A stretch of DNA of 64,000 nucleotides from Melampsora larici-populina 98AG31 (taxonomy: Eukaryota > Basidiomycota > Pucciniomycetes > Pucciniales > Melampsoraceae). The notes under the pieces are model-generated. The model worked only from the letters and a program-made list of their open reading frames with translations. It did no database searches and had not been told where the DNA came from. Each line of letters begins with the position of its first letter. Within the stretch, counting starts at the first letter, position 1. The translations under genes were made by a program, and so were the position numbers. The stretch spans positions 220,824 to 284,823 of the forward strand of contig NW_006768841.1 of the NCBI RefSeq assembly GCF_000204055.1, given 5' to 3'. This document shows positions 5,120 to 60,970 of this stretch, piece after piece.

Positions 5120-6496
5120 TACAGCCATTCCAATATTGCTTGTTGCAACATTTTTGAAAAGAAAAAGTTTATGAGCTTGAAATCTAAGTTTTGAACAGTT
5201 AAAACCTGAAAATTGGCTGTATTTCCCTAAATTACAGCCAATTTCAAAGTTTTAGTGAGTAAAAACTTAGGTTTTGCCAAGTTTCACTTTTTATTTTTCA
5301 CAGCAGAGCAACAAGAAATATTGGAATGGCTGTGTCAGCCCTGAGTACATACACATGTACCCAAAACTAACCTGTAACAGTAAAAACCCTATGTATAAAA
5401 TCAATTACATGCTACATACTGAATATAAACTGTATGTAACATGTAATACAATGTCAAAACCTTTATTACATATACCTGAACCTGTAAAACAACATGGAAT
5501 ATGTAATAAATCACCATTTACACCTCATAACTCAGTGTCAAGAGTTAAAATGCTTATATTACATATCACACATAACATGTATATGTAACTAAGCATCACT
5601 AGTAACAATCATTACTATATGTTAATGACTAACACTACAAAAAATGTCATCTTTTCTCATGAGACTAGAAAAGTCACGTGACATAGAAAAGTTTTGTCCA
5701 TACTTTTCTTTTCTCACTTTACTATGTTTGTACATCTGGATTTTACCTTAAGATATAGAGTAAATTTTGATTACCAAATTTGCAGTTGACTCCACGAACA
5801 AACCAAAAGAATGCTATACAGGACAAGATATATGATAACTGACTAGAAATGCTTAAGATGATGATTCAAACATCATGTCTAGTATTTTATAAGAAAAGAT
5901 ATGAAACCTAGCTAGTGAGTACTTGTACTGAAGTCAGATCTAAGTAATCCAAATGTATAATGAAGGCTTCCTTTGATCAGAAAAAAAATACGAAAAGGAA
6001 AGTTACTTAATCTTGCACAGGATCTTTTGTGCACACATATAATCTAGAGAAAATTGCTCTCAGATAATCACAAACAACACATTGCCAATCAATCATTTGA
6101 CGACTTTTGACCCTTGCATATTCATCAATGTGTACAGTCCCAACTCAATACACGTTGATGCACATATTTGAACAAAAAACTTCTAAGTATGACTGTAAGA
6201 CAAGGAAATTTGATACATCGATATCACACACCATATCACAAGGTCACAACAGTGGAATTTCAGATTTCAGTGAATCACTAGACTAACGAGATCGGAGGCT
6301 AGTGGTGTGGCAGGTTTGGAAACCGGTGAGGTGGGTTCAGGATTAGTTCGAGCTACACTGCAGCATCCTCAAAATCGCAAGTGCGTTTGCTAGGTTCAAG
6401 AAAGTGAGATGATCATAGATGATGTGACAAAATACAAGTAAAGTGAGTTGTGTGAAGACATTTATCATGATACGTTGTGATTTATTAAATGTTTAC

Positions 6497-6994
6497 TCAC
6501 TTCTCCCTAGAAAGAATTGCTCCACGTCTTGCCACGTCTCTGTTGTAACGTTTGAATGCGCGCATATACTCTTTACGTTCCGCGCGTGATTTCTTTAGTT
6601 GCTCCTTGAGTATATGATGATGGGCGGAAAATTCGGGATCAGGCAAACCCAATGCCATTTCTACATATCCCACTACACGTTCAGCATCACAGAGATAAGA
6701 AATAGTATCATGAATCTGATCCTGGATAGCACTAAGATGATCTTTTATCAAGTCGAGTTCTTGGGTGTTGAGAAATTGATAGTGTTCTACATGTTTTTCA
6801 AGAGCCTGAGGGACCAAATGGTAGCATCCCGAATCAAGGTGCAGTTCAAAACGCAGATTGAACGAGCTGATGCGCTCTGGAGAAGTCTGTTGTGAAAGTT
6901 CCGAGGTTGGAGTTCGAGTTTGGAAGGCCATGGCTCGTAGCTCAGGCATGACACTTCCCCGTGATTGACCATAGATCATGAAAGTTGGGAACAT
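6497..6994 (-). CDS. CACTA accessory protein, 165 aa, unknown function
   Basis: I do not recognise this protein. The chosen ATG (6992-6994) opens the frame MFPTFMIYGQ; the same frame is open to an earlier ATG at 7063, but a TTCTTTTAG acceptor-like site lies just before the chosen start, suggesting that the upstream part is an intron. The protein is soluble-looking, has no membrane segment, and has a basic, probably helical C-terminus (KEQLKKSRAERKEYMRAFKR, then NRDVARRG). It lies in the left part of the CACTA element, divergent from the gene at 7868. Conserved genes of this kind in CACTA elements are usually assumed to help transposition or to be captured cargo; here that is inference. Confidence 0.55.
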   Translation of the reverse strand: MFPTFMIYGQSRGSVMPELRAMAFQTRTPTSELSQQTSPERISSFNLRFELHLDSGCYHLVPQALEKHVEHYQFLNTQELDLIKDHLSAIQDQIHDTISYLCDAERVVGYVEMALGLPDPEFSAHHHILKEQLKKSRAERKEYMRAFKRYNRDVARRGAILSREK

Positions 6995-7867
6995 TGTGGC
7001 AACTTTCCTAAAAGAATTGTCAGAATAGAGAAAAGATAAACTGGAAATCGAGTGAAATATCATCGACTAACTTGAATATAGGTGATAATTAAACGAAACG
7101 GAGACAGGACAAATCACTCAAAGTGAGTTAGGCCCAAGCGAGGTTGACATGGTTTATTATCATAAGAACAAAAAACGAGATGGGTAGGTGTTTTCAGAGG
7201 TGAAAGGGCATTGTTAATTTGCCTTGGTGTTGATCTGTAGTTATCTTCTTACCCTTTCCTAATCTCGTTCCTAATCCCATTGCTTGCCCCACTCATGCAC
7301 CACTTGCATGCATGGAATTCTTTATGAACATCCGATAATATATATTATATTTACACAAAGTCATTTTAATAAATCGGCTCTCTCGAAGATGGATATAAAT
7401 TTCTTCCTTTATTATTTCCCAACTCGTGCGCTAGGGATCGTGAAGGTATTGTCATGATATAACTTTAAGTCTCGAAAACGGGCAACTCATTGATTCTGCA
7501 CTTTGACCATCACACCCCAACTCACCCTTTCGAATGTGCACTGTGACATAACAAAAGGAAAAATATGTACGTGGTTTAACTTTCATGATCCCCTGTATGA
7601 TGATATTTCAGCAATAGATCCCGCCACAACATAGAAAAGAACAATGTACGTGAACTAAAGCAATCACTGACTCACAAAAAATACATCTGTCTTTTATGAA
7701 CCACCACTACCTGTTCTTTTTTATATCAGATATCTAATTTCGAAGATTATAAAGGTGAATTTTCACATTCAGTGATGATACTAGATCAATACCTTCAGAT
7801 AGTTTGTCTTTGTTAATTTTCTGATAATTAGCTGTTGATCTAATCGTCTGGATTCTTTCTCACAGAT

Positions 7868-8716
7868 ATGACGAAAAGTAAAAGCCGCAAAGGGTCGCTT
7901 AAGTCTCCTGGGGCTTCGATGGTTGCGGATCATAGTCTGAAGACGAAGGAACCAACTAGCCCTACCCCAAACTCAACCCAAACTGCTAAAGATCCCAGCA
8001 CGAGTCAAAATCCTCAAGCAAACTTCTCAAATCTTTTCAATCATCCGTTGTGGCCTAAAGTCCAAACATTACCTAAAGACCTCCATGTTTTTCTCGAAAT
8101 CGACTTTGAATCAATGGCTTCAGGGATAAAGAACTTAAATTACTACAGGGTCTTGGCTCATTTCAATCCCGAAACAAAATCGCGTCCGACTCATAACAAG
8201 GCCAAGCTGACTCACGACTTTATGACCGACTTGCGACCACTTCTTGAGCCATTTTTGATCAGAACATCTGTTCCACCATCTGACACTCTCAAACCCGATA
8301 TTGATTTCGATCCGCTCAGTCGTCATACTACCCGTGCAATGTTATGTGACGCCATCCATAGCCGTTGCCCAGGTGTTACAATTCGACAAGACGCCCGAGT
8401 CGATCAAGTCCTGGTACTCTACAAGGCTCATGTGGATCCTGATCTAGTCCTACCTTTTAGTAAGGAGTTCAGTTGCAAGCCCAAGACCCTCGCAGCTGGA
8501 AAGGCTCATAAAAAGACAATCGAATTCTTACGATTTTCACTCCAATGTCATGCTCCATACATATTTGTCCACTCTGTTGGTCTAGTACATCCGGTTCTGG
8601 TCGACTTGTACATAAAATTTGTTTGTGAGGAGGATGTTCCCGAAGGACGTGTTATCTCGGGATATCATTATTCTCAAGTTTCAGACCTGATGCCGTCGGT
8701 GGATATGCAAGAGTGA
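7868..8716 (+). CDS. CACTA accessory protein, about 282 aa, unknown function
   Basis: Begins MTKSKSRKGSLKSPGA with a basic, serine/proline-rich N-terminus of about 55 residues, followed by a globular-looking region (NLFNHPLWPKVQ through DLYIKFVCEEDV). No known family is recognised. The frame ends at 8716. A downstream stretch starting after an acceptor at 8789 (TINQPSSFVKKVFHAP) is open to a TAA near 8883 and could be a second exon joined from a donor inside the last codons of the main frame; that donor would be weak. The gene lies directly upstream of the transposase, on the same strand, with about 490 bp between them. Confidence 0.6.
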   Translation: MTKSKSRKGSLKSPGASMVADHSLKTKEPTSPTPNSTQTAKDPSTSQNPQANFSNLFNHPLWPKVQTLPKDLHVFLEIDFESMASGIKNLNYYRVLAHFNPETKSRPTHNKAKLTHDFMTDLRPLLEPFLIRTSVPPSDTLKPDIDFDPLSRHTTRAMLCDAIHSRCPGVTIRQDARVDQVLVLYKAHVDPDLVLPFSKEFSCKPKTLAAGKAHKKTIEFLRFSLQCHAPYIFVHSVGLVHPVLVDLYIKFVCEEDVPEGRVISGYHYSQVSDLMPSVDMQE

Positions 8717-9207
8717 TTTTGTGCGTTACTTCATCTATCAACAAAGTCTCTAACAAATCTTTAACCTGCTTTTCTTGTAACACAGACTATCAATCAACCC
8801 AGTTCATTTGTCAAGAAGGTGTTTCATGCACCCAATCTCCGAAACACTGGTTTTGGTTCCCAATGGCCGCAGATGCTTGTTTAAATAAACGATAAGAATT
8901 CAAGTTTCAGCCTAAACCAAAGGATATTCTAGTAGGAATCTAATTCTACGTGATGTATCGGCTTATATGGTGTAACTTTTTGTGGATCGTGTGGATTGTG
9001 TTGCGAATGAAATGTTGTACTATTTGGCTATATCATGTGGCAGACTTCTGTGAACTCTTTTTTGGACTACATTATACATACCATTCTTGCTTTCCAAAAG
9101 TATACCTCATTGTATTTTCACCAAGGTTTTTTTCTCGTATGTTCTGCTTTTTCCGTTAACTATCTGTCAAATATTCAACATCTATACTGTGTGATTTGTT
9201 CGAGAGG

Positions 9208-12200
9208 ATGGCTCCTCGTCAAAAGCAGGCTGGACATGTCCGGCGTATTGTGTGCTGCTGCAAAGCTTTCCATTGCAGTTCAGGTGTCTATTTGGATGCA
9301 TATGGGCAACAGCAATCAGGAGTTGAACTTACTCGGGAAGCATATGAGGCTCATCAACGTGCTGAGCTTCGTAACCAGGCTCAAGAGTCTTCCTTATCAA
9401 CAAACTCCAACATCGAAGGACCTTTGCTTGAGCCTGGCGGTGGTTCAGATCAGGATGATCTGGTTACATCTCTCGCACAGATCTCTTTACAATCATCATC
9501 TATAAGAACCACTAGGGATCATCTAAATGTAAACGAATCATCGAATCCACTGCAAGAATCTCAAGTGGTAGGAACTCCCCGACCTGAGTCTGGAGAACGA
9601 TTAGACATAAATCCCGAATGTTCCTTCTCTAATCCCAATCGTTCCACATCATCGGAGAATACAGAAGCAACACCATCAAGAACTTGTCTAGCAGCTGTTG
9701 TCGCCCAATCTGAAGGTGTCAAGAAACATGATTGCAGTACGTCTTTCATCCTAGTGTTGACATCCAGAGTCTTCCGTAAACTAATCTGTTTATTTTGCAG
9801 GCCGATTTCACAAATTTACGCTCACACAAGTCCCAGCGTTGGCTCTACATGCTGTGCTGACAACGGTAATTATGAATATATACGACCATTCATCAAATAG
9901 TACAGCTTCCTGGCTACTTAATGTCCAGAGGATCACGATCGAATTATCTTGGACTCTGGGACTTGTACCATGTCTCTCACAAAGTTCTCGCGTCCTTCTT
10001 CCGGCTGAGACTGTTGCTCTACGTAAAATACCAAAAGGTATTGGTACCGCTATCAACTGGCTTGAGATCGATCCTGACCTGATCTATATGAACTGCTGCC
10101 GAGCATGCTTTGCTTTACATCCACCAACCAACACGCCAATGCGATGCAATCATAAGATATCTACAATTCCGGGTGGGCCTATTGAAAACAATCCCGATAT
10201 GGTGACGAGTGCAAATCCAACCACACATCCTGATGATGCCTTCACCGAAGAAACTTGTGGCGAACCTCTGATAAAATTTTCCCGAGGAAACGAGAGACCT
10301 GTGCGGCAGTATGCGTTTCAAGATCTCTCCAATTGGATATCACGCTTGTTGTCTCGTCCAACGATTGAGCTGTCCCTTGATGAATCACTCGAGGAATCAT
10401 CAAAGCCATTTGAACCGGCCTCCAAAATCAGCGATATTCATCATTCAAAGATTTGGAAAGAATTCAAAGGCCCAGATGGAAAACAGTTCACAAAAGCCAG
10501 CGGGAATTTGGTTTTTGGGATGTTTGTGGATGGTATCAATCCATTTGGAAATAAACAAAGTGGTCATCATACATCTATCACTTTTATCATACTAGTTTGT
10601 CTAACACTTCCATTTAAGATACGGTTTCGTCCTGAAAATATTTTCATTGCTGGAGTGGTTCCAGGACCACGTGAACCTTCACTGGAACAAATGAACTGGG
10701 TTCTAAGGCCAATTGTAACTCAACTTCAAACCTTGTGGAATCCTGGACTTTTACTGTCTCAAACTCATCTCTACAAAGAGGGACGCCTGGTTAGGGCTGC
10801 ATTACTACCTTTTGTAGCCGACATCCCTGCTTTGAGGCGCTCTCTGGGTTTTCCAAGCGCAACAGCAACCTATTTTTGCTCCTACTGTCTTCTCAAAAAA
10901 AGCGAAATCAACAATTTTGACACCACATCATGGCCTTTACGACCTTGTGCTCAACACAGAGTGTGGGCTCAACAAGCTCGAGATGCCAAAACTGTTTCAG
11001 AAAGAAAAAAAATCTTCAAAACTCATGGAGTGCGGTACTCCGTATTAATTGAGTTAGAGTACTGGAATATCATCGAATTTCATGTTGTAGATTCAATGCA
11101 TAATCTGTTGCTCGGTCTCTTCATGTCGCACTGTAGAAGGTTTTGGGCAATGGCGGAAATTACCAGCGAAGAAGACAAAGTTCCAGGAATCAGTACAAAT
11201 GAGCTACTAAGTCTATTAGCAGAACACTCCGAAAAAAAACCCAAGAATCGCAGGTTGCCAAAGGTGGAGAAAAGTGTTGATGGTGAAAATGTGATAGACA
11301 ACTCATTTGATGATGGCACAGACTTGAGTGATTCTGAATTTGATCCGTTGAATGATAGTGGATGGGTAGGAGAGTGGGTTTCTCCACCTCTTGACGAGAT
11401 AATCTTTGATTCTTCAATGTTACAGTATGTCAATTCTTTCTTACCACGGATTCATATTCCAACGTGGATCAAGAGAGCAATACCAGCTCTTGGGAAGGCT
11501 TCCTTTGGTAAGCTTAAAGCTGATGAGTGGAGAAATCTATTCTCCATTCAATTACCCTTGGTATTGATTCCAAAGTGGTTTGGTAATGATCAAGTTCAGA
11601 CTTCTTTGCTGCAGAACTTTTGTCATCTAGTTTCATTAGTCAACCTAGCTCTCAAGCGTGCAATCACGGATGAACACATACAGAAATACCGTTATCATAT
11701 TCGAGAATACTTGGAAAGCTCAGTTATACTTTTTCAGCATTGTACCCTGACACCGAACCACCATATGGCCATTCATTTGGGGGACTGTCTTGAAAAGTTT
11801 GGTTCAGTGCGATCTTGGTGGTCTTTTCCGTATGAACGCCTAATGGGAAATATTTTGAAAGCCTGTCATAATAATCATGTTGGTCAGTGTTTTGTATATA
11901 ATTGTAATACATCCCTTCCTCAGCTAAAGTCAGATATTTGTTTAATATTGCAGGGCAGCTCGAAATCACATTTCTCAAGAACTTCTGTCGGGCCGGGAAT
12001 CTCTCAGCTCTACTTCAAGATGAGAAAAAACTGCCAGACGAACTCAGACCCCATATTACGCAGCTGAAATCTTTTTACGAGCCGCAAGATCCTAAGCCCC
12101 ATGTCGAATTCTCGGCTCGAACCACTGAGTGAAAACACTCTAGCACTTTTGATTAGGCGTCTGGATGATGATCAATGTGATAGCTGTACATGGTTAGCTC

Positions 12201-12673
12201 CGAAGATTTGGGCCACATTGTCGTCTGATGATGCACTTGGCTTTTCACCAGTTCCAGCCCGTGCTTTTTTTCACAAACGACAGGAACATTGTGGTGTGAC
12301 CTACTCAAACTTCAAGAGCAGTATGGATGATAGCTTTGTTGTCTTCCGATCAATCACAGACACCTCTGACTGCTTTGGACGTATATCAAAAATCTTCGAA
12401 CACCATCGATCTCCAGTATTGGGTGAGAATATAATTGATACCTGGCTACAAATTCAGTGTTTCAAGCCAATACCATCATCATCAAGGGACCCTTTTGCAC
12501 GTGTCCAGATGCCAGATATGAACATGCATTTACGGGTGTGGGATGCGCCTGAAGATAGAATAGTCAGACTAAATGAGATAATAGCACATTGTTCATGGCT
12601 AATGTATAAGCCCAAAGAGTTGAGTAGGAATCTCAATATTCCTACTGTGGCGCTGGTCTCAATGGTGCGATGA
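9208..12673 (+). pseudogene. TNP2-like CACTA transposase (Transposase_21 type), apparent frameshift
   Basis: Exons are 9208-9736, 9801-11882 and from 11954. The N-terminus has a cysteine cluster (IVCCCKAFHCSSGVYLDAYG), then an acidic linker and the catalytic region with DGINPFGN, ENIFIAGVVPGPREPSLEQ, FCSYCLLKKS, VRYSVLIELEYWNII and VVDSMHNLLLGLF, which I associate with TNP2 proteins of CACTA elements. The second frame ends at 12132, while clearly related sequence (SRLEPLSENTLALLIRRLD) continues in a different frame from about 12101 to 12673. That implies a one-base indel near 12080-12115, an unrecognised intron, or a sequence error. Apart from this, the gene of about 1,100 codons looks complete. 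The product would bind the CACTA ends and cut DNA. Confidence 0.88.
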
Positions 12674-12806
12674 GGGGTATTTGATGCATTCCAGTGCCAA
12701 ATATCTCACCAAACCAATACACAATCATCGATACAAAAGATTAAAGATAGAATACTTGTATGACATAAATAAGAGTCCTGTTTACAATATGTTCTTTGAA
12801 ATGAAA

Positions 12807-15631
12807 TCAAATCCTTTTAACTATTGGAAGTAGATCCTTCAGAATAGGTTTAGAAGCAATGTCCAGCTCGCTTCTCTCAAGAGGAGAAAGACTCTGTAGC
12901 CATCGTACAGAGTAGCAATCAATAGGAAGGGCGGACGGAACAGAGGTGCGGGTTACCGGCCTGTCTTCGCCACGCAAACGTGGCCTGGTAGGACGTCCGG
13001 TGAGTTTCGGCGACTTGTTCTTCCCTGGTGTGCTGGAATCGGTTTTTGCCTTGGAAGAATCGAGTAATAGACAGATATTTTCAAGCTCCTTGCTACGCCA
13101 TTCAAGATTTCGAACACGACAGGGTCTTCCTGGACCCTGTGGATCCTCAGGTGAGATTGCCCGCTCATTATCAGTCTCATCATCGCTGCATGCCACAATA
13201 ACAATTTTTGAAAGTGGCCATAGTTCTTTTTGAGAAAGAACTACATTTTCACGCAGCCGTTGCAACTAAGATTCGGAATATTCAATGTGAGGGGTTTTCC
13301 ATCAATTGTGTATTTTAAAATGTGGTACTTACGTATCTTAGCCTAGCGCTTCTCCGAACTTCATCGGCTGTTCTTTTCCTGCGTTCCTCATCCCAGTTTT
13401 CGTTTTGGTAGCTATATATAAGATGTGTTTAGCCAAAGAAGCCCTGTGTAAGTCTACCAAGAGGATTGGTCATCATCATGAAGCAAGTATCAAGTTGAAG
13501 CTTACCGCTTTTTGAGTGACATGACATGAGTGAAGAGACACCTCTTGATGAAGTCGTGGTCGCCATTCTGTAGAGGTACTCCAGTATACTCTCCGCATTC
13601 AACTAATTTTATAAATATATTTAAAGCAAGATCCCATAACCACTTGTTGGGTTGTGAATGAGGTGGTTCCGAAAAGTCTGGACGAAAGCTTGAGACTCCC
13701 ACTGCTTGCATCATATTCCATATGACCGAAAGTTGCTGAGGAGTGGAGTCTTTATGCCCGGGTCCATTTGGATACGAGAAACATGGATCAAAGGGCTGCG
13801 CATGAGAGGTTTGAGCACTGGAATCTTCATTGATATTAATACTTTTCGGTTCAACATCACACATCCAAGCGCTCCTTTTGATTTCGGTTGCAGGGCGTGG
13901 AAGATTGTTCTCCTGGTCCCTCTGCCCAAACATTGTCTCAATGTGAAATCGTATCCGAGCCTAATCCAATTTAAAGGATTAATCTTGATTCAAGACTGAG
14001 CGCATAGAAAAACAACTGACTGAAGTTTGCCCACCGCGTGACTTAGTACCACTGCCCTTTGGAGAGCATGTCCCAATTCTTTTGTCAACAACGTCAGATA
14101 AAATATCAAACTTTTCTGATATCGCCTCAAGTCTCTTGTCTGTCCTTGCTATGTGAGCTTCGAGCTTATCTACATAGAAACAGGCATCAGTTTCTGCTTC
14201 ATTGAGGATCAAACAAACCCAGAAACAGATATATGAAACTGCACTCACAAATCCTTTGAATGACCCAGTCCGCACTTCCAGTTTCTAGCTTATCAGACTC
14301 ATTTTTTGATGGTTTTTTGGGATTCGAATCGTCTGGTCCATCTCGTGCTTCAGGAATTGAGTTTGTTTCCAGAGACTCTCCAGACTCAAGTACGCTATCA
14401 AGGGTGAAGGTGCCTTTGCTATTCTGCCTTCCTTTGGGCCTGGAAGTGTCGCACGAAGTATTGGGTCTGGTATTTGAATTTTCATCATCACTAGCTTCGC
14501 TGATGTAGGTGTCTGATGGATTGGAGTTGTCGGTTCCAGAGTTAGATGGTACGTAGTCATCGCTTCCAGAGTGAGATGTTGTGTAGTCATCGCTTCCACG
14601 TGCTTTGAGTTTGCCCTTTCCTGATTTTCTTGGTTTTGGCAACGACTTTTTGATTGAGCGCACTCCAGGCTTCTTTGAGCGGATGTTCTTAAGACTTCGA
14701 ATGGAGGATACAGATGGTCCTGCAACCGGCTGTTGGGATTCGGAACAATCCGGGCTCGAGTCTGGAACTGCAATCAAAGGTGTAAGAGTAAGAACACGGT
14801 ACCTATATTGATGATTGTACACATTACATGATACTATTACTGACCTTCTTTGGGCTCTGAACTTCGAATTGTGGGTACCAATGGTCCTGCCACAGGCTGT
14901 TGGGATTGATCCCGACTCGAGTCTGGTTAAGCAGTCGAAGATGTAAAAATGAGAACAGTCTCTATATTCAGCACATGACAAGATATTGACCTTCTTTGGG
15001 CTCTGATGTGTTTGAAGACTCGAAGGAGAATTTCTGTAGGTGATCCGGAATGATAACTATCATGCTCATATGTACGTCAGATTCCAGCTCAATTCTTGGA
15101 CGAAGGAAGACAAACTTACTCAATTCACTATATGTCTTACACATCTTGATGAGATTTGTGCGATCAAAATCAGTGGCATCAAGTCCCACACCACGAATCA
15201 TCTCCACAAGGTCGGGGTTTGAAAATAGAGAATAATTAGGACCCTCATCGGATAGCTGACTGGGAATTTCGATGTCGCAGGCCTCTACAAATCGGTTGTC
15301 TTTGCATCTTGGGGTGATGTCTGGGACTAGCCTCTTGGACATTTGAGGCTTCTTCCGTATCACATGCCAAGACAGTAATCCAAGCAAACGATCCCTCTGA
15401 GTTTTAACTCCAACGGTAACTCCAACGTCCTTTAACGAGTCCTGTATAGCACTTGTGCTGTTTCCAGTTTGGTCTTGGATAACAGAACTCATCAGTAAAT
15501 AGTCTGTAAGTGATGTAGATCAGATCAAGACTTGGCTTACTGATTTCCGGACCTGATTCGTCTTTCTTTCTTTTTTTTGAAACCGCTTTTCTTGGTGGAC
15601 TCGAAGGCGGAGGTATCACTTTTTTGACCAT
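12807..15631 (-). CDS. CACTA accessory gene, multi-exon, unknown function
   Basis: Starts MVKKVIPPPSSPPRKAVSKK (basic, NLS-like) at 15631. Exons with GT-AG borders can be followed: 15631-15541, 15503-14991, 14922-14845, 14767-14249, then exons within about 14187-14020, 13950-13505 and 13412-13333, and a last one ending at 12807. The middle is low-complexity and acidic (GSDDYTTSHSGSDDY). The region after 14187 (KLEAHIARTDKRLEAISEKF) looks like a short coiled coil, and the C-terminus ends KPILKDLLPIVKRI. I recognise no family. Exon 14922-14845 and the start of the next exon share DSS...SQQPVAGP, suggesting an internal exon duplication. It is convergent with the transposase gene (133 bp between stops). 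Confidence 0.65.
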
Positions 15632-15699
15632 GATCTCTGAGTAGCTGTTACCACTCTTAAGTAGATGCCCAAAGATTTGGTTTCAAATCACAAGGTTCT

Positions 15700-16190
15700 G
15701 AAAAATGAAGTTTAAGATCGTAGGTTTTTGAAACACAAAAGACTCGAAATGATAAGTTTTGGAAAAACGAAAAGTTTGAGGTGAGCTGTTTACAAAAACA
15801 AAAAGCTTGAAATGTAAAGTTTTTCAAAGATAAAAAGCTTGAAATGTTAGGTTTAAAAAAACATAGGCTTGGGATGATAAGGTTTCAAAGGATCAAAATC
15901 TTAACGGTGAGTTGGGGAAATCCAAAAAGCTTGAAATGAAAAGTTGAGAAAAGCAAAAGCTTCAAACGATAAGTTTTTCAAAGAACGAGAGAGTTTGGAA
16001 TGATAAATATGTTAAAAAAGTAAGAGTGTGAAGTGCTAAGGAATTCAAAAGACGAGAGACTTTGAAATGGTCAGTTCTCTGAAGAATTGAAAGGTTTGAA
16101 ATCATCAGGTTTCAAAAAACGAAGAGTTGAAGACAATGAGTTTTGGAGCAGGATGCTTTCAAAAAAAAACAAGCTTGAAATAGTTTTTTA
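15700..16190. repeat. Degenerate tandem repeat of about 40 bp inside the CACTA element
   Basis: A purine-rich array lies between the two minus-strand accessory genes, upstream of the one starting at 15631. A degenerate unit of the form AAAAGCTTGAAATGATAAG followed by TTTTTCAAAGA recurs perhaps 10-13 times (for example near 15810, 15834, 15928 and 16168). Unit copies differ by substitutions and indels. It has no coding potential. It could be a regulatory or transposase-binding array, but that is inference. Confidence 0.7.
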
Positions 16191-16972
16191 GAAAGAAAAT
16201 CACAAGTATTTGAAGAAACGGAAAGTGTGAACTGATGATCAGCTTCTAAAAGACCAAAATATAAAGTCTTCTAGCACCAAGACGTCCTTTCATGGGATGG
16301 TTGTCATGACTAGGCAACTCAAACGCATTTGTTTGACGTATCAATCATCAGATTTATGATTCATTACTAGGATACACTCTGAGAATAGAAAAGTCATCAT
16401 AAGAGGATGTCATGAAGGACATAATAATTACCGCCTCATAACTTGATCTTATGTTTGTATACACCTCGACACATCCAACGAGTACATCATATTAAAAAAA
16501 TACCATTGGGTTTCATGATTTCCTTTGTCGGGGATCCAAATGATCACTCAGGGTGGCTTGTGCCCCTTTGTATTTACCTATGATCAAGGACAAGCGTGAT
16601 TGTAATACTTGGCAAATCTGAACTTGTTGCTCGATCATCTTCTTTCATTTGTATAATGATCCCCTAGCAAATGCAAGGGCATTAAGTCAATATTCAAGAA
16701 TTGTGTTGGTAGCGCTGTCAGAGTGGTTTGGACATTTAAAGAGTGACACAATGAACAAATCTTTTAGATCTCAATGGAAGAGCAGATTTGAATCAAAGTA
16801 CATGAGAATATGTATGCTCCTCGATTGATCAAGTTTCAGCTCAGTGTAACATTTAAGATTTCATAGCTATTTAGGGTGATATAATAGAAATGACGGGATC
16901 ATGGAAACAAAATGAAAAGTAAAATCTGTTTTCCCAAGACTCGGTAATAGATTTACGTCTAGAACCATAAGT

Positions 16973-18630
16973 TTACTCAGAGGCTGTATCTTCAGAATCT
17001 GATAAGCTCATCATCTTTGTAATTATCTCTTCCTGTTTTTGAAGTTCTGAGAGAGCTTCATCTAACTTTTCCTTCAGGTGTATGAGTTCTTGCTCCATAC
17101 TGGCAGCTTTGTCGTTTAGTTGATCAATTGTCCTACTCTTCTTTTTGAGGTGTGCGACATCGGCTTTGAGTCCTTGGAGTAGATCATCTGCAGGTGGGGT
17201 CAGCTTCGATATTATGGCGAAAAGATGATGACGACTTGTACCTTGTTGATGTGCTTTCTTTGTATCAATATCTGACTTTGCGGTCATCTCAATTTTGGTT
17301 TTCAATTCGGATAGAGCTGTTTCAAGACCTAAGACTAAACAAATGTGGATCAAGCTTTGAAAAGGAGATATAAGATCAGAAGATAGGCGGAATTTACTTA
17401 CTTTTGTCATTGCGATGTTGCTCCATCAAGAAAATATCAACACCTGACCTTTGCTTCCCGCTGTTTGTAAGGCAAGGTATGACAGGCTCTGTCTCTGTTT
17501 TTTTCAGCGGGATAGGTCAGACTAAATCAGACCAAATACAATGCGGAAGATTTAGACAAGGCAGCTCACCCGTATTTTCAGTCTCAAAGAGATCGAGGTC
17601 CGAAAACTCAATCAAGTCGGGATGGAATTTCACCTTGGTAACACTTGGGATAACAGCACTTTGTGGGCCCACATCGACCAGATCGTTAGTTTGAGTCTTC
17701 AAACAAGGCGATTTTGGTGGAATACGACGAAAAGATGACTTGTTCATGTGTTGAAGAGGGATCAGATCAGGACTAATGAATGACTGTGCTCCTTCTGGCC
17801 CAAGCAAATGTGAGCTGATAAATTGGGGTGTGGATCCAGACAGTTCGACTTTATGAACATCATCTGAAACTTCAACATCGTCTGTAGTTGTGGGTTTTGT
17901 GCTTTTTGAGCGATGTGAGGTCTTGGATTCGGCATCAGCATAACTTGGTCACAGTAGGTAAGATAGGGAACAAGGCTCATATACCTTGTTTGATTTTGGA
18001 GTTACACTTGAGACGCAACGGGACCCTGTTGTTGTAGAAGACGCCAATCGTTCCATTAGCTTACCGTGAAGTATGGGGATTCATGATTTCAAATTCAGAT
18101 ACAGTACCAGTTGCAGATCTCTTGTTGGAGTTTTTGTCTGTCTCATTTGACACTGATCGCTTGGCCAAACGAGCAACTGATGATGGTGGTGGATGGGCTC
18201 CCAAGTCCTTCTTGACAGTTTTAGAAGAAGAAGAAACGGCGGAAGGATGTGGCATGGAAGTCGTACTAGAGGAACTGTCTTTTTTCGCTTCCTCTGGATT
18301 GTTCATGCTAGATGTGCCGCTTTGATCAAATCGTTGGGGCGGTGATGAACTTGTAGGATCCGGAAAGACTTGATACGTTGGAGGTGAGATATGTAATTTG
18401 AATGAGAGTTAGAAACATTTGCGATGATTGAAAGTTGAAAATGGGATCTACGAACACTCAGGCTGCTGCTCCCGGACCGTCTCGGCTATCTTGGATTTAC
18501 TTAGTTGACCATTGACTGGAATCAATGGAAAATTTATTCGTAGCCAATCCAGCATCATCTGCTTTCCAACACCAGGTGCACTCGGATCGAACACCTCTGG
18601 CTTTGAGGCTGGATGCATCCTGCTGGTCAT
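16973..18630 (-). CDS. CACTA accessory gene with C-terminal coiled coil
   Basis: The chosen ATG at 18630 gives MTSRMHPASKPEVFDPSAPG. Exon 1 ends at a GTAGAT donor near 18453. The next exon (about 18335-18066) is Ser/Lys-rich with MNNPEEAKKDSSSSTTSMPH; a later one (about 17942-17573) contains DLIPLQHMNKSSFRRIPPKS; the last (about 17330-16973) has heptad-like LQGLKADVAHLKKKSRTIDQ and ASMEQELIHLKEKLDEALSE and ends SDSEDTASE. Exon borders in the middle are approximate. No named family is recognised. The coiled coil suggests oligomerisation. It is the gene nearest to the right TIR, on the same strand as the gene at 12807-15631. Confidence 0.6.
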
Positions 18631-19923
18631 GAGACGTTTGGAGACTATGAGCAGAAAGTGAGATAAAGTCAAATACGATTGTTGGAAACTATTTCGAGAC
18701 GCTTATGCGCAGCAACAGCAAGGTTTAAAAAGAGTTGAAAAAGGACATCAACAGAGGTAGAGATCGCTATATTGATTCGGAAAAAGACGATGATGTTATA
18801 AATTTATAAGCCTGTCTGCTGGCGAGTTGTAGGGAAATGAGGAGGGCATGGTAAAAGAGCGGCCTTCCCAAGAGTTTCTTGAATAAGATGACTTGGCCAT
18901 TGAACAAGGATATTATCCTGCAAATCAAACAAGCCATGTGTAGCATGAGTTGTCGGGCGAGTCTCAGAAGATATAACCAATATATGTGAGCCACTTTTGC
19001 CAATCTGTTTTTTGGATAAAGTACACTGGAAGCAAAGAAAACTTTGCCGCTTGATGATCTTTAGGGTCCTATGTATGTGGGACGGGCACAGACATAGATG
19101 CTATCTACCAGTGAAAACTAGTCAAGTGAGAAAAGAAAAGTGTGGACCGACATTTTCTATGCCACCCGGGCTTTTCTAGTCTCATGAGAAAAGATGACAT
19201 TTTTTGTAGTGTAACCCTGAACCAATGTAGTGATAAGAACAAATATCACTACAGTTAGGTTTAGAGAGGAGAGTATATAAACCCCTCCTCTCTCAGCCTT
19301 CAGAGAAAGAGCCCCAAGCAATTATTACACTACACTTTTAAAGAACAATATGAAAGTTCTACAGAAGTATATATCAAGAGTCTTACAAAGATAAGACTAG
19401 TGATAAACTTCTTACAACTTTCATCAGCTTCCTGATTAAAAGTAAGTAATACATTCCTTCACACCCCTCTGGATCCTCTACTTCCCCCAAGTAGAAATCA
19501 AACCTAGGTTGGTGACCTCTAACAGCCCCAGGTTAGTGACCTTAAGAAAACTTTCAGGTTGGTGACCATAAGAATAACCCAAGGTTAGTGACCATAAGAA
19601 CAACTAGTTTGGTGATCTTTATCTCACCCTTTAAATCAGATAACAGAAGATTAAAGGAGGGTCTTGGATCCAACCCTCATCCAATAATAATAATAATAGT
19701 TATTACTTATAAATCTCCTTATAAGGAGTCACTTAACTGTAGTCTGACTTGATTTGTCCCAACAGACTACTAGTGCTATTCTCTCTCTTTCTTTTCCTTT
19801 CTTTATTTCACTTGTAGATACTACATATATGAAATAAAGAATTGAAGTTCTTGAAATCCTACCCACCAATTGCCCAATTAGTGGCTTAGAGTCCTCTTCC
19901 TGAGCACCTACCCTCACAGGCTG

Positions 19924-36084: not shown

Positions 36085-39000
36085 TCACGGGTTATTTTTT
36101 CCTTTCCCCTTTGGCTGCCCACGAGATTTTTTATTGGATGTAAGAAGGCGAATGCGTTCTTTTTCAAATGCATTCAAATATGCAGGTATGTTTAGATTAG
36201 TAAGCATTTGACAAATCACTTTAGGTAGTGAAAAGCATCCGTCTGCAAATTCCACTATGTTGGACCCGCTTGAAGGCTTGAAAACGTAGACTACACTTGT
36301 AGCCTCAAGGTGACCAAAAGTCCATTGACTTTTTGGTGATTTTGGTGGGGCAGTGCTTGCAATTGGATAATCGGGGTTGAAATACAATATCTGAGTGGAT
36401 ATGTATGAAAGTCCGCTGAGAGTTGTGGCTGATTTGACCCATGCATGATTGCCAGAGCCGGACATGTGCTGATATACGGTCAGAATCTTGGCGAGGTACA
36501 GCTTCTGTGTATATCCAAATCATCCAGATGATCAGAAGTCTTGAAACAAGAATATACATATGTGCATTTCTAAACAACTCACTGCGTTATTGATCAGAAG
36601 GACAAACTTCCCATGTTCCAAAGGATTGTCTGTGCTAACTTGACCGCCACCAAGATCGATATCTGTTGGAAAGTCGTCAACAGTTGAGGTGTTACGGATG
36701 ACATCAGCTAGTCGAAGCTTTGAGGTGATATTCCAGCGATGCAATCGAGTGGTTGCTGAAGAAACAGCTTCGTGGTTCTTCATCATAACTGCCACCAATT
36801 TACTACACATGCTTGGCTTCAATTGTTCTGCTTCAGAGGCCGTGAGATTGATAGCGATGTCCGAAACCGTTCGTTTAGCTCGCTCATTTCCATGGCCTTT
36901 GGAGACCTGACTATCATGGGATTCTCGGATGCGAAGCATAGCTGTGGCATTGAGTTTGCATCCACTTTCGATCAAATCAACAAGCGCTTCCTGTGTAGCA
37001 GACTCTGATGCTTTTCGTGCAACAGTCGTGGTAGCCGATAACATGTTTGCAGCAGCTGAGAGTTCAACCAGATCAGTAGAGAGAATGAGATGTGAAAGAG
37101 ATGGCCCGACTCACATTGTGGGTTCAGCAACGATGATATTCTCATTGCAGCATTCCAATACTCATCCGTTTGATGAGTATCGGGGACTGAGTCCAATATT
37201 GTATCGGCTTCTTGATGCTCACGAGTCAACTGGGCTACTGCTTCAACCACCGCAGCATCGTTCTCACCTGGAACAAAGCCATATTGGACGTCGTATGTCT
37301 TTGTTGGAGCTTGAGAGACGCCAGTGTCTTCCAAATCATCCTCGTCAGCTGAATTGAGATGGCTGGAGTCCGGAAGATCAGACTGTACAGTTTCAGTCGG
37401 GGGTGCCATACCAGCGAATTCGGCTAGACTCATAGCTCGTTTATGAGCAATAGTAAGTTCACGTGAAATCTCTTCATTTGATGGAAAGTAAGAGAGATCG
37501 GGGGTTTCTGTGACATCAGGCTCGTCTGAGAAGGCATGTTGATAGCCTGATCGACGGATTGGAGTGTTAGATAAGATATTGATACAGAAAGATTCAAGCT
37601 AATAGAGCACTTACCAGAGTGTATATGTTCTGACTGGGGCATTTCCATATTCCCGGACATGATACTTCGTATGACAGCAAAGATCTTCGGCATCATTAAT
37701 CAAGCATCAAGGACTGTAAAGTTGGGGCATATTACCCTCATCCATCCGAAGATATGCTCACAAGCCTCTGTTCCATGCTTCCAAGGCATGAGAGGTGAAT
37801 TCGGATAACACTCACGATGAGTTATAATGAGTGCTATTAGACTCTCTGCCATCGCACAAAAGATCTTCATACTCTGATGTGATATGAAGTTCTTTGATAA
37901 ACTCATCAAGGAATCTGGTTCTTCTTGACGATCGGACAAGTATGATTGCCATCTTCTCAAGAAGAAGATAGCTGTCCACGCGGAACGAATTCGTTCTCCA
38001 TGACCAATTGTCTTGTTTAGCCAGGCATCGCAAAGCTCTCCAAGGATGAAGAGGTAGATAGACAAGCCGGTGCATTTGGGTCGAGCTAGAGCTGCCTTTA
38101 AAGTATGATGATTTGTAGTTCGATATGCGCGGCCATCATCCTGTCGATCACTGTTGAGAACGTCTTTTGTGAATAAGGGCGAGTTTTCTGATTCGAGCAA
38201 AGTAACAAGGTGTTGAATGTTTACATAGTACTTCCCAAAGCATAGAAGTCGAGCTCCAGACAGTAATTGATTGGCCGCGGTTTTCCGACCATGCTTGGGA
38301 TCTTGCACACATATGACTGGTAAACCCTGAGGTCCTAGTCTGGGGACCTTGACGTGTACTTTGAGTTTTTCGTTCGTGTATTCAATGAAGTTCTTTGCAA
38401 GATTTGAAAAACCGTGTTGAGCTTTGAGCTCTTCTGCAGCTCCATCCGATCCAAGAGATAGTACTTGCAACCCAGCCGTTTGAGACATCGAAATGAAGGT
38501 ATCATGTTGTGTGATGAGTTCTTCGGCTGTCTCGTTTTTGTAGCTTGCGATTAATGCTACCACAAAGGTTGGAATGTTTGGTAGTGGCACTTGTATTGTA
38601 TATGCTCGCACCTACAGTTGAACCGAGAGATCAACAAGGTGGTAAATGAAGCAAGTGGATTGAAAACATACCTTTGAACACAACTGTTTCTTTGAGACAA
38701 TATCGTTGACAAGTTTTTCAAGTTCTTCTTTGTCCTTAAACTCTCGATCTCCACCCTCTGCCCCAACCAAGAATCCATGATGGTGACGGAGGGATTGAAC
38801 ACATACTGTCTGGTTGGTCGCAGCAGCAAGAGGTCCGTTATATCCAAGGTCTTTAAGGTACTTGGCAATCATTTCGAAATTGGATTGTTTAAGACCGTCT
38901 GCAAGCTGTGCTCCACTTTTGGCGCGATCGTAGCGCATAGCTCGAGACGTCTTGCCTGCGAGATGCTTGTTGAAAAGATTGAGTGCACTTGGACTCATAG

Positions 39001-40373
39001 CACCAATTGTCGTCAGGAAATTGTCCAGATATACGTCAATTCGCTTTCCACAAAGGCTTTTCCCATCAGCTTCTCTTTTAGCTCGATCAGCAACAGCCAT
39101 CATAAGACCTCGAAGAACGTCTCGGTTTTTGAAGAGACCGGCCTTTCCATATGTACCAATAAGACTCCAGAGTTCTGAATCACCCTCCTTTGAGCACTGA
39201 TTAATTGACTTTGACAATCTTCGTACTTCTTCATGTTGAAGCATGATGGAATGAAACTGGTCGGCAACCATGTATACATCGGGGATGAATTTGACATCAT
39301 CTTTCTTCGCATAGGGTCGACTGATTGCGGAGAGTAATGATCGCTCGTGCTTCAATCCAAGGCATGATTTGCAGACCACATGTGACGATCCAGTGGCGCT
39401 AGGAGAATCGACCTGCCTTTCACATTTTGGCGAATGAATGGAGCCAAGGAATCCGTGTTGTTTTATCACCCATTTTGACTCAGCTTCAAGAGCTCGGTGA
39501 AGAGTTTTGCGTTGAGCATTGCTGAGTCCCTTTTCCTTGGAGGTGTTGAACAACTCTTTGCAAACAATTGACCGATGTCGAGAACCATGATAAGGAGTAG
39601 GTGAGCCGCGGATGCATTCGATGATCTTGTGCCGGGCGCCTTCACGCTTCCACGTCTCGTCCGTTAATCCTGCACATGGGACTAAGTTCTTGGTGCTTTT
39701 GTTCCGACCTCCATCAGTATCCTTGGATATTGGTCGCTTTTTTGACTCAAAGTAATTACTCAAGAGGCCTTTTTTGTTCTTAAGAGTGTTTGTGACTTTT
39801 GCACAATTGACTACAGAACCAAGCGCAAGTAGTTAGATACTGTGTAGCTATTGATTTGTGCTGAAGGAAAATAAACTACATACCTGACGCCCAGTGTCTT
39901 TCAGCAGCCTGAATTCGTCCCAATTTCAAAGTGATCGGCTTGGCCTTGCAGTGACACTGGTACACCTTGTCTGAATCCTTTTGTGTGACTACACATTGAC
40001 TACACAAAGCTTCAGCGGTTGAAAGTGGGCAAGCAGCTACTACATCCTTTTGTTGCTTCTTTTGGGCTGGTTTCTTCTTCGGTGTTGGTGGATCAGAATC
40101 GGGTTGAGAGGTTGTTTTGTTCTCGAAATTTGTGTTTGGTGTGGCTATAGCCTGCGAGGACGTGGATTGTGGACAGCTCTTAATGATCTCGATATCATCC
40201 TTTTCCTCCTCACTGGAGGACTCATCATTGCTGATTGGTAGGTATTCCAAGCTGATGTCACTGTCTACATCAGAATTGGAAGGTTTTTTTTTTTGGTGAG
40301 AGTCTTCATTATCGGAACTGCTATCAATGACAATGCAGTCTTTGGAAGGTGCTGTGTAACAGGTAGGACTCAT
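36085..40373 (-). pseudogene. Transposase of the 5-kb element, 1,316 codons, one in-frame TGA
   Basis: Six exons: 40373-39884, 39810-38672, 38611-37615, 37546-37115, 37055-36583, 36504-36085, all with GT-AG borders and matching phases. The N-terminus is acidic and followed by a cysteine finger (LCSQCVVTQKDSDKVYQCHC ... RHWASVNC). The core has LQVLSLGSDGAAEE (D about residue 599), VQDPKHGRKTAAN (D about 647) and PWKHGTEACEHIFGWMR (E about 825/828), spaced like a D-D-E/D transposase. The DPKH..K and E..F..R elements recall P-element/THAP9 proteins, but this is only a resemblance. The C-terminus is basic (SRGQPKGKGK). A single TGA at 37702-37700 interrupts an otherwise open exon just after GWMRVICPNFTVLDA. 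Confidence 0.82.
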
Positions 40374-41695: not shown

Positions 41696-44600
41696 ATGCC
41701 CTCTAAATCCAAGAACCCAAAAGCTGTTGTACCTTCTAAGCAAAAAGCCTCTTCAAATTCTACGGTTTCAAAGCCTTCAAGTTCAAATCATAGAGCTACT
41801 ACTGCTTCTCAAAATCCCGATGGAGTGACTACAACAATTGTTCTAGATGTAGACTCTGATGACGGTAATTATGTAACAGAACGGGAAATTGAAGATGAAG
41901 AAGAAGCCGGGAATTCTTTTCGAAGCACTCCGTCAAAAACAGATGGCAAAAGAACTCGTCAATCACCAACAGCCTCGAAGTCTACAGCCATTCAAAAACA
42001 CAAGTCTAAGAAAGTCCGAAAGAAACAAGTATGTAACTTTTCTATTAGTACTCCGTCCTTATGTAGAGGCCGCTGACCAACAACCAACCAATCAGAATTA
42101 CAAGATGCCTGACAACGTAGATGCCAATCAAGACTCTGATATTGATATTCAAACTTCAAAGTCTGATGAAAACTGTAAGTTTGATCCGATCAAAAATTAT
42201 TATGGCAAGGAACTTGTGCTTGGACCGAGGCAGGTAAGCCAAGTTTTTCGTTATCATCAAAAATATTGCTTGTTTACTTTGTTTTCTGACTTAATCATTG
42301 GTTTCTTCAGAAAGAAGGTGAAGAACCCAGGTGCCGTGAATGTTTGTGGTGTGGTGACATATTCACCGATGGCGACAGGAGTCGTTGGAACCTTACTGAG
42401 CATTGAGATGGTGGAAGTAGCCGCCAGCCCTGTAAAAAAAGACAGCGGGCCATCGAAGCAGGTGAAAAGCTCCCTCTTACCTGGCAGGAGAAGAAAGCAG
42501 AGTTAGCACGAGCAGAAGCGCAGAAAGAAGTAGGAAAGAACCACACTCTGGATGCCTTTCTCGAGTTGCCTAAGTTTTTGGTCCAGTTACTCAACACAAT
42601 CTTGGTTCTATGGCTCTTACGTAACTGTATTCCATGGCTACGCATGGAGGACACTTACCTTCAGGCTGCGTTTGTGCTTTGCAATCCAGCAGCAAAGCTA
42701 TGGTCACCTACATGGGCAGCAAAGCAGGCAATGGCCTACTTCGAGCAATTTCACAATAAGTTAATCACCACTCTTCAAGTGAGTTTCTTTGCATTTCTAT
42801 AAGTTTCTCTCAAATTGAAAATGATATACACGTTTGGGATAGGATCTATCTTCAAAAATCTGTGTCATCCATGATGTGTGGACAACGAAGGGGGGTAAGC
42901 GAGCGTTCATTGGGGTTTCTGTGTCATATATCGACAAAGACTTCAAATTTCATGTGCTCCATTTGACACTGAAGCTCATTGCATGGAATCACTACGGTGT
43001 CCTACTGGCTCAACCAGTTGGACAATTCCTGATACGACATGGGCTGCATAAAAAAATAAGTCTTCTAATTACATTATATCTGATCTTCACATTGTCTGTA
43101 TCAACTCTTAAGCTTATCAATTACTCAATCTAGCACATGGTTGCACAAACAACTGATTCAGGATCAAGCAATCCAGTCTTGGCCCAAGAACTCGAAAAGA
43201 TGTTCATGAATGCTGAAGATCCACATTATTGGAACTCGAGTCGCAATCAGATTAGATGTTACTGTCATAAACTGGCTCTAACAGTCAAAGCTGGCCTGGA
43301 CACTATTGGCTTTGGAGTTGGTCAAACAAAACCCTTGGCACCCACTGGCAAAAGACTCCGACTTCTCTTACCGGACAGCTCCTTGCCACCACCCAAAATT
43401 GTTCTCCAAGATGGCACGGTTGTTGAAGATGATGAAGATCTGAATGAAGACAAAGAACCAGCAGATCTCAGTGATCTCAGTGAAGGTCCGACTCCTACTG
43501 ATCACATTGATTATGACTCCCAAGGCGAAGACAATGACAACAGTCCAGACTACAAAGACCAAACTCCAGATGCCGACCTAGTACCCCGAGCTCTGAAAAA
43601 GGTCAGACCGTTTTGTAGTCCTCTTCATAATCCACGACAACATCAGATAAGCTTATTGGTATCGATTTGAAACAAAACCACTTGAACTTCCTATGACAGG
43701 TTCGAAGGATCAATAAGTTGATCGCCTCAAGTGCTCCTCGAATAAGCCACTTCCAGGCAACAGCTCAACAGCTATCTTATAAAGGCCCCGGATTGATTGG
43801 AGCTCACGGTCAAAGATGGAACATCTGGTATGATGCTCAAAACCGCTGCTGCCAAGCAAAACAGGTAAGCAACGACTTAATTGTAACACAGTCACGAACC
43901 ATCAGCGTAATAAATGACGTACATTATGTATTTTTTATCCAGGTAATCAATTTTATGATCAATTCTGATCAAGAAGGCTATTATGAAGGTATAACCATCA
44001 CTCCTGACAAATGGAAAGGCGTGGAGGCGCTGAATAAGGTCCTTGAGGTACACTATGAATTTGTTCTTTTGGTTTCAATTTGCATACATACCAACCTTTG
44101 TCATTTGTTCGAATTCAATATAGGTTTTTCTACTCTCCACCAAGAAGATGGAAGGTGACGGACCAACGGCAGGTTCGGTTTTATTTCAATACTCAACGTT
44201 GATTGGTCTCTTAACAACCATGAAAAACAAGACACCTCACTCAGCAATCTCAACAATGATTACCACAATGATTGGCCAGCTTCGACTGTACCAAACCGAG
44301 TCGTTACACTGCGACCCTGTCATCTTAGCCACCATTCTAAACCCACGTTTTCGTCTCAGCTTCTTCACTCAGAAGTATCCAACCTACGCCACCAATGCTG
44401 AACATCTGTTTTGCCAGGCTCTTTCTTCCCTTGAAGGAGTCGATCGCGATGAGAAAGATGAGGGTACTCAGGATGGTAATGCTGCTTCACCCAAATCATG
44501 TGATCCATTTGAAGAAAATGGGGCCTTTGAGGCCAGTTCAACTTTACAACTCAGCGGCGATGACGAGATCGACCAGTATCTTTCGGGAAAATTTCCGTGT

Positions 44601-60650: not shown

Positions 60651-60970
60651 AATCCCAACCGGCTGATTTTTGATTTGACCAGAATTTTGAATTCCATCAT
60701 TGATTGACTCCTCAGCAATGTATGGCACCACCATGATCCTTACTTTCTCTCTCTTTCTCTACCATATCAAATGTTTTATATAGCTTGTATCTATGTATGT
60801 ACCCGACTTGGTGGAACACCGGAAGAGCCAAGATTTTTCACAGGGATGCTCTTTCTGATGTTTGCTTCAGCTTGTTCTTGTTCTTTTTCATCAGTGATTG
60901 TCTTGTTTTGCTTGATTTGTCAATTTTATACCGTTCTCCTTCACCGATCAAAGATTAAGATATCTCCAAA

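Follow-up and report, generated by a model that had tools for sequence, protein, structure and literature searches.

Why should a transposon carry four genes besides its transposase? The question is raised by a 64,000-nucleotide stretch of the poplar rust fungus Melampsora larici-populina (positions 220824-284823 of contig C77, NW_006768841.1, within a 98.3-Mb assembly), here called the window, in which a complete CACTA/EnSpm element of 13,579 bp occupies positions 5633-19211. The original prediction, made from the letters of the window, had described a 13.6-kb CACTA element with well-matched terminal inverted repeats (TIRs), a TNP2-like transposase and four accessory genes that it could not assign, two of them large, intron-rich and opposite in strand to the transposase. 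All of this was borne out: the accessory genes are A (6497), B (7868), C (12807-15631) and D (16973-18630), with seven exons in C and five in D, both on the minus strand. Since all or most of these genes are found together again at dozens of genomic sites, the additional genes look like functional components of the transposon, not stray cargo.

Recurrence of the gene set with one transposase lineage

Six-frame searches of the species' own genome returned 43 matches to family A, 87 to B, 89 to C (searched with the exon at 13505-13960), 65 to the N-terminal exon of C and 62 to D, and none of the four families is single-copy in this census. The TNP2 set comprised the 59 of 351 candidates most like the window TNP2, and linkage was thus measured inside the TNP2 lineage of the window. 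Grouping at gaps of at most 12 kb gave 125 clusters, 49 of which contain TNP2, B and C together, and 15 of those all five genes. With pieces merged, 52 of the 59 TNP2 relatives have B within 12 kb and as many have C, 31 have D and 18 have A; random placement gave means of 1.21 (B), 1.23 (C), 0.94 (D) and 0.65 (A), and never more than 8 across 500 runs. A same-genome control drew on 150 PF02992 matches scored of 195 candidates, 52 in the clade of the window TNP2 and 98 representing other CACTA transposases. B is found near 47/52 clade matches versus 8/98 others, C near 45/52 versus 10/98, and D near 27/52 versus 4/98, while 85 of the 98 others have none of B, C and D nearby. Because B, C and D accompany the TNP2 of this clade but rarely other PF02992 proteins, the module is characteristic of a single TNP2 lineage together with its fringe.

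Strand and order are also patterned. The nearest C lies on the strand opposite TNP2 in 48 of 52 places, the nearest D in all 31, and the nearest B on the TNP2 strand in 47 of 52. B is the next gene upstream of TNP2, on the same strand, at 40 of the 59 relatives, and in 43 of 45 cases D shares the strand of C and lies upstream of it. The order B-TNP2-C occurs at 25/59 (with D beyond C in 18) and C-D-B-TNP2 at 8/59, the remainder being varied. B-TNP2 and C-D behave as two cassettes whose internal order is mostly kept and whose relative position changes.

The ends were checked in the elements that were fetched, other clusters being judged by gene linkage alone. Near-identical copies (at least 99.3% identity) are those on contigs C8 (whole, with a 100-bp run of N), C11 (with a 4.2-kb run of N), and C94 and C40 (both at contig ends); the C1 copy is diverged with the same gene order, and the C3 and C56 copies are distant. 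Both ends read CACTACAAAAAA in all seven elements in which both were located, the one end of C40 being CACTG. Matching 3-bp target-site duplications (TSDs) flank six of the seven (TAA, TTT, TGA, TTA, ATT and TGA), and those of the C8 element are mismatched (TAT/TTG). Each of the five fetched elements free of a long run of N (window, C8, C1, C3 and C56) has all five genes enclosed by matching CACTA ends, gene A of C56 being remote (25.6% identity, E 1.2e-8); in C11 and C93 a run of N fills the stretch expected to hold TNP2. Such close identity among the window, C8, C11 and C94 copies suggests that they moved recently. The original prediction had proposed recurrence of the same set between CACTA termini as the sign of an element module, and this is what the five elements and the linkage of B and C display; B, C and D are neither absent from other copies nor free of codon constraint (see below).

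In the window, both ends of the element read CACTACAAAAAA; CACTACAAAAAATG starts at 5633 and its complement finishes at 19211. The TIRs extend over about 97 bp (88 had been predicted) and align over 98 columns at 87.8%, the outermost 41 nucleotides matching perfectly between the two ends, and TAA on both sides constitutes the TSD. When the flanks were joined with one TAA, matches at 90-98% identity spanned the junction at 40 of 40 scored places (315 candidates); these are element-free copies of a high-copy repeat in which the element is nested, and they fix its ends exactly. This host repeat (window 5500-5632 and 19215-19320) has at least 40 other copies. The CACTA termini, the 3-bp TSD and the PF02992 transposase are together those of a CACTA/EnSpm element. 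A TTTTC near position 19 is common to the ends compared; beyond it, for about 90 bp, come GAAAA and TTTTC motifs whose orientation alternates, with some exceptions: C56, for example, lacks the final motif at its left end. On either strand, AGAAAA occurs 39 times in 10 terminal 150-nucleotide pieces from five lineages, versus 2.2 expected from element interiors, the motif being short and A-rich and the ends being related. Repeats in the ends of plant CACTA elements are described as binding places of TNPA-like proteins in the accessible text of PMC2613891.

TNP2 matches Pfam Transposase_21 (PF02992) with E 1.2e-15, above the cut-off, and by this domain is the catalytic transposase. From a shared point onwards its tail is open for 59 residues in the window versus 240-241 in C8, C1, C3, C56 and C30; the frame of the window copy is thus broken or misassembled near 12.1 kb, and open copies exist elsewhere.

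Compared with C1, the ratio of non-synonymous to synonymous substitution rates (dN/dS) was 0.30 for B, 0.22, 0.19, 0.30 and 0.43 for parts of C, 0.37, 0.32, 0.26 and 0.56 for parts of D, and 0.42, 0.10 and 0.15 for parts of TNP2; values for the accessory genes B, C and D are mostly 0.2-0.4. Gene A gave 0.43 against C3. Among near-identical copies the counts of changes are too small for dN/dS, several genes having more non-synonymous than synonymous changes, and many remoter comparisons are saturated in the synonymous rate (dS). B, C and D are under purifying selection, and A is under weaker constraint. The N-terminal exon of C has 46% identity in C56 and 36% in C30, and is in frame except for one stop in C30. 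Relative to C1, dS rises rightward (A 0.135, B 0.244, TNP2 exon 1 0.40, elsewhere 0.42-0.79), and identity in 700-nucleotide bins is 0.80-0.90 to the left of about 14 kb and 0.64-0.77 to its right. The low dS and higher identity of the left end suggest that left ends have been exchanged between elements, making the copies mosaics.

Accessory proteins and their relatives

Protein B is basic and, in the sole ordered structure model, mostly helical. Its gene has no in-frame stop in the window and one in C8. The B family contains 12 proteins including the window's own, and those named to species are all from Melampsora, M. americana among them. One member, P0011 (MELLADRAFT_65217), has a UniProt name that starts "Secreted pr" and an N-terminal extension absent from most relatives, which may be an artefact of gene modelling and could find its way into effector lists. 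A helix pair of B scored 19.2 against the N-terminus of D with B as query, a score reached by 0 of 300 shuffles, and the two may be related by a shared motif.

The gene C model used has GT-AG introns and encodes a basic protein (isoelectric point 9.0) of 711 residues. It is backed by public gene models, which are predictions and not transcripts: MELLADRAFT_68941 (420 residues) shares the first two exons and a large part of the middle, with one more small exon and a stop in a modelled intron, and MELLADRAFT_86952 (698 residues, the C1 copy) backs the later splices. An imperfect tandem duplication (window 14694-15006, about 71% over 167 columns) houses the extra exon of the public model. In structure models, the C1 homologue has an N-terminal helix pair (118-127/137-146) with a predicted local distance difference test score of 93-96, and protein C further shows a helix or coiled coil at about 310-350 and a mostly confident C-terminal region from about 364; a leucine-zipper match is weak (E 0.02).

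The C family comprises 16 proteins, all those named to species being from Melampsora, and includes M. americana. Scoring 7,984 candidates in a profile search brought the number to 22 proteins, two of them from Puccinia triticina: PtB15_6B609 (P0037, E 3.2e-61) and PTTG_26676 (P0038, E 6.7e-54). Residues 1432-1527, in the tail of PtB15_6B609, can be aligned with TNP2 residues 175-273 (33%, E 1.6e-5 in a three-sequence set), and this protein is probably a model fusing neighbouring C and TNP2 genes, by which C would adjoin TNP2 in Puccinia too, in one model; PTTG_26676 has no TNP2-like tail.

Protein D, of 424 or 426 residues depending on an uncertain first junction, has a conserved N-terminus of 47 residues and a C-terminal coil. 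Protein A is short and coil-forming, and Pfam gave no family over the cut-off for it. Its homologues are 78% (C1), 55% (C3) and 37% (C44) identical, a longer form of about 290 residues occurs among its relatives, and its placement is variable, at the left end in the window and inverted at the right end in C3.

Table 1. Features of the element and its flanks, in window coordinates.
Feature	Position	Strand	Basis
TSD TAA, left	5630..5632	.	sequence and empty sites
Left TIR (CACTACAAAAAATG...), with AGAAAA/TTTTCT motifs	5633..5729	+	TIR alignment
Gene A, open frame, 189 residues (165 from first ATG used; possible upstream exon)	6497..7066	-	ORF (open reading frame) and homologues
Gene B, single exon, 282 residues, stop 8714-8716	7868..8716	+	ORF
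TNP2 exon 1 (model)	9208..9736	+	agrees with public model P0003
TNP2 exon 2, Transposase_21 domain	9801..11882	+	model, Pfam
TNP2 exon 3, to frame break of window copy	11954..12129	+	model
TNP2 C-terminal part, in a frame other than that of exon 3 in window copy	12101..12673	+	continuous in C8, C1, C3, C56, C30
Gene C last exon, conserved C-terminal region, SDDETD	12807..13265	-	model
Gene C exon	13333..13411	-	model
Gene C exon, most conserved part	13506..13960	-	model, homologues
Gene C exon, coiled coil	14021..14169	-	model
Gene C exon, low complexity; public model has extra small exon upstream in imperfect tandem duplication	14249..14767	-	model
Gene C exon 2, SAP-like motif	15120..15503	-	model
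Gene C exon 1	15541..15631	-	model; start identical in P0039
Gene D last exon, coiled coil	16973..17328	-	model
Gene D exon 4	17402..17488	-	model
Gene D exon 3	17570..17943	-	model
Gene D exon 2, start uncertain	18065..18349	-	model
Gene D exon 1, conserved N-terminal ~47 residues, end uncertain by 6 nucleotides	18452..18630	-	model
Right TIR	19115..19211	-	TIR alignment
TSD TAA, right	19212..19214	.	sequence

Elsewhere in the window, stretches at 44124-44729 and 60959-61672 have weak matches below the cut-off to hAT-like RNase-H (E 1.6e-4) and HTH_Tnp_Tc3_2 (E 1.8e-4) and are perhaps transposon remains, and two adjacent open frames of 303 and 406 residues on the minus strand (37700-39832) have no Pfam match at E 0.001.

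Possible roles of the accessory genes

The reading that we consider reasonably probable is that the element belongs to a CACTA/EnSpm lineage expanded in Melampsora whose machinery is split over several genes, with C and probably D as its own DNA-binding partners, a functional analogue of TNPA, and B as a near-constant partner of the transposase. In this scheme C and probably D would bind the AGAAAA/TTTTCT motifs of the TIRs in both orientations through N-terminal helix-loop-helix motifs and would dimerise by coiled coils, pairing both element ends for TNP2, which would cut them; they would also control the element's promoters, as TNPA, another protein, does for maize Spm. B would assist as a partner in the transposase complex, a role suggested because of its linkage and constraint, and A would be a less constant, fast-evolving helical accessory with a modulating effect. 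Of the options in the original prediction, TNPA-like partners have the most support for C and D, through predicted architecture and not through homology to TNPA, C having a candidate DNA-binding motif (below cut-offs) and a coiled coil and D a coil only. A more far-reaching version, which we hold tentatively, is that of a rust-wide CACTA branch with at least three obligate proteins, in which a B-TNP2 catalytic cassette would be combined with an exchangeable, oppositely transcribed C-D end-binding cassette, and B and the C-terminal domain of C would be undescribed folds.

Several observations weigh against the proposed division of labour. In the census, 47 of the 125 clusters contain a single family (C in 14, A in 12, D in 11, B in 9, TNP2 in 1), 28 of the 59 TNP2 relatives have no D nearby and 41 no A, and a listed TNP2 lies within 12 kb of 55/87 B, 51/89 C, 31/62 D and 18/43 A matches; accessory copies without a listed TNP2 may be decayed, at contig ends, beside an unscored TNP2, or free. 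CACTA ends were not found within the 19.5 kb fetched for the C30 cluster, the dN/dS of gene A is 0.86 against C1 (15.5 synonymous and 47.5 non-synonymous changes), and the AGAAAA enrichment is not independent evidence, the motif being A-rich and the ends related. Motif matches in C homologues fall below the cut-offs, for SAP in P0036 (E 0.024, 14.7 bits versus 23.9) and for HeH in the P. triticina homologue P0037 (E 0.075, 13.2 bits versus 28.9), with SAP at E 0.1 at best in 2 of 14 members of another C set; Pfam yielded no family over the cut-off for the C homologues or D, and the N-terminus of D (seven fragments) matched no family of the SAP/HeH type. Protein B likewise has no Pfam family, its likeness to D has an hhalign probability of 18%, with 10 of 150 shuffles reaching the score when query and template are swapped, and protein C has no likeness to B or D. 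The structural check suggested with the original prediction gave one ordered model for B, confident regions in C and no convincing fold match for either, the C-terminal domain of C included (parts of C being barely searched).

The main rival to this division of labour is that the same proteins regulate the element or counter its silencing: they would act on chromatin or host defence, not in the chemistry of transposition, and so keep the element expressed, in the manner of the Tet-like dioxygenases carried by other rust transposons. In its favour, the accessible text of PMC1636069 reports that TNPA reactivates methylated promoters, that of PMC12730594 describes Tet genes on rust EnSpm elements, and between TNP2 and C of the C30 cluster lies an ORF for a Tet-like 2OG-Fe(II) oxygenase (683121-683609; PF20515, E 4.5e-39). 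However, Pfam detected no enzyme family over the cut-off among A-D, and Tet-like genes within 8 kb of TNP2, B, C or D number 6 of 150 scored (263 candidates) versus 3.9 expected, which is no clear enrichment. The Tet-like ORF is at C30, and the window element has none; the earlier suggestion of silencing antagonists found no support for A-D, and we regard this role as unlikely.

It is more doubtful still that B and TNP2 are one gene, B being the 5' part of the transposase transcript. The public model P0003 fuses B with TNP2 exon 1, and B's frequent place immediately upstream on the same strand (40/59) agrees with this; but B has its own stop, lies on the other strand in the C3 copy, is free-standing in the models P0005, P0006, P0007 and P0009, and the B closest to TNP2 sits elsewhere than upstream on that gene's strand in 12 of 52 cases. 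That the accessory genes are passenger cargo or (as the original prediction also suggested) captured host genes, retained through recent spread of the lineage, is very improbable: A is variable in place and weakly constrained, and many copies of A-D stand apart from a listed TNP2, but B, C and D are multicopy and tied to one TNP2 lineage, with 52/59 linkage (B and C), conserved strands and purifying selection, C occurs in Puccinia, its N-terminal exon is kept in frame down to 36-46% identity (one stop, in C30), and none of the families is single-copy in the census.

Relation to known elements and significance

The plant elements Spm/En (TNPA and TNPD), Tam1 (TNP1 and TNP2) and soybean Tgmt* are like the rust element in their CACTA termini, 3-bp TSD and Transposase_21 domain, and probably in their repeated end motifs, according to the accessible text of PMC2613891 and PMC1636069. 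In plants, by the same portions of these sources, the second DNA-binding protein arises by alternative splicing or from exons of the same transcription unit, whereas the candidate partners here are separate genes on the opposite strand, accompanied by B and A. The TET+ EnSpm elements of Puccinia and Austropuccinia (Kojima 2025, PMC12730594, as far as its accessible text goes) are likewise rust EnSpm elements with CAC..GTG ends, a 3-bp TSD and an extra gene, which is a Tet-like dioxygenase; the focal element lacks a Tet gene, unlike the C30 cluster. No dioxygenase was present in the ORFs scanned in the focal element, and among the 150 of 263 candidates that were scored, the sole PF20515 match listed for C77 falls beyond the element, at 328906. 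Transposase_21 or CMC-group transposases are also those of fungal CACTA/TRC elements (PMC1636069) and of Cryptococcus CNIRT6 (PMC12810828), and the accessible parts of these two papers contain no four-gene module. Proteins like A-D do not appear in the accessible main text of PMC12730594, PMC12810828, PMC1636069, PMC2613891 or PMC12210899 (supplements and Repbase entries lying outside this scope), and the wider literature search, which excluded most subscription journals and Repbase, found no description of them. "Undescribed system", as the original prediction had it, is therefore fair in a modest sense for the proteins, and the CACTA kind itself is known.

Little is known about the partners of CACTA transposases outside plants. 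The accessory proteins of the Schistosoma SmTRC element had no match in other animal or fungal elements and were assumed to be TNPA-like in role, according to the accessible text of PMC1636069. The M. larici-populina lineage offers a conserved set of candidate partners with dozens of natural copies, a candidate end motif and a link to Puccinia, and marking these unannotated rust protein families as transposon-encoded would make for cleaner catalogues of rust genes and candidate effectors.

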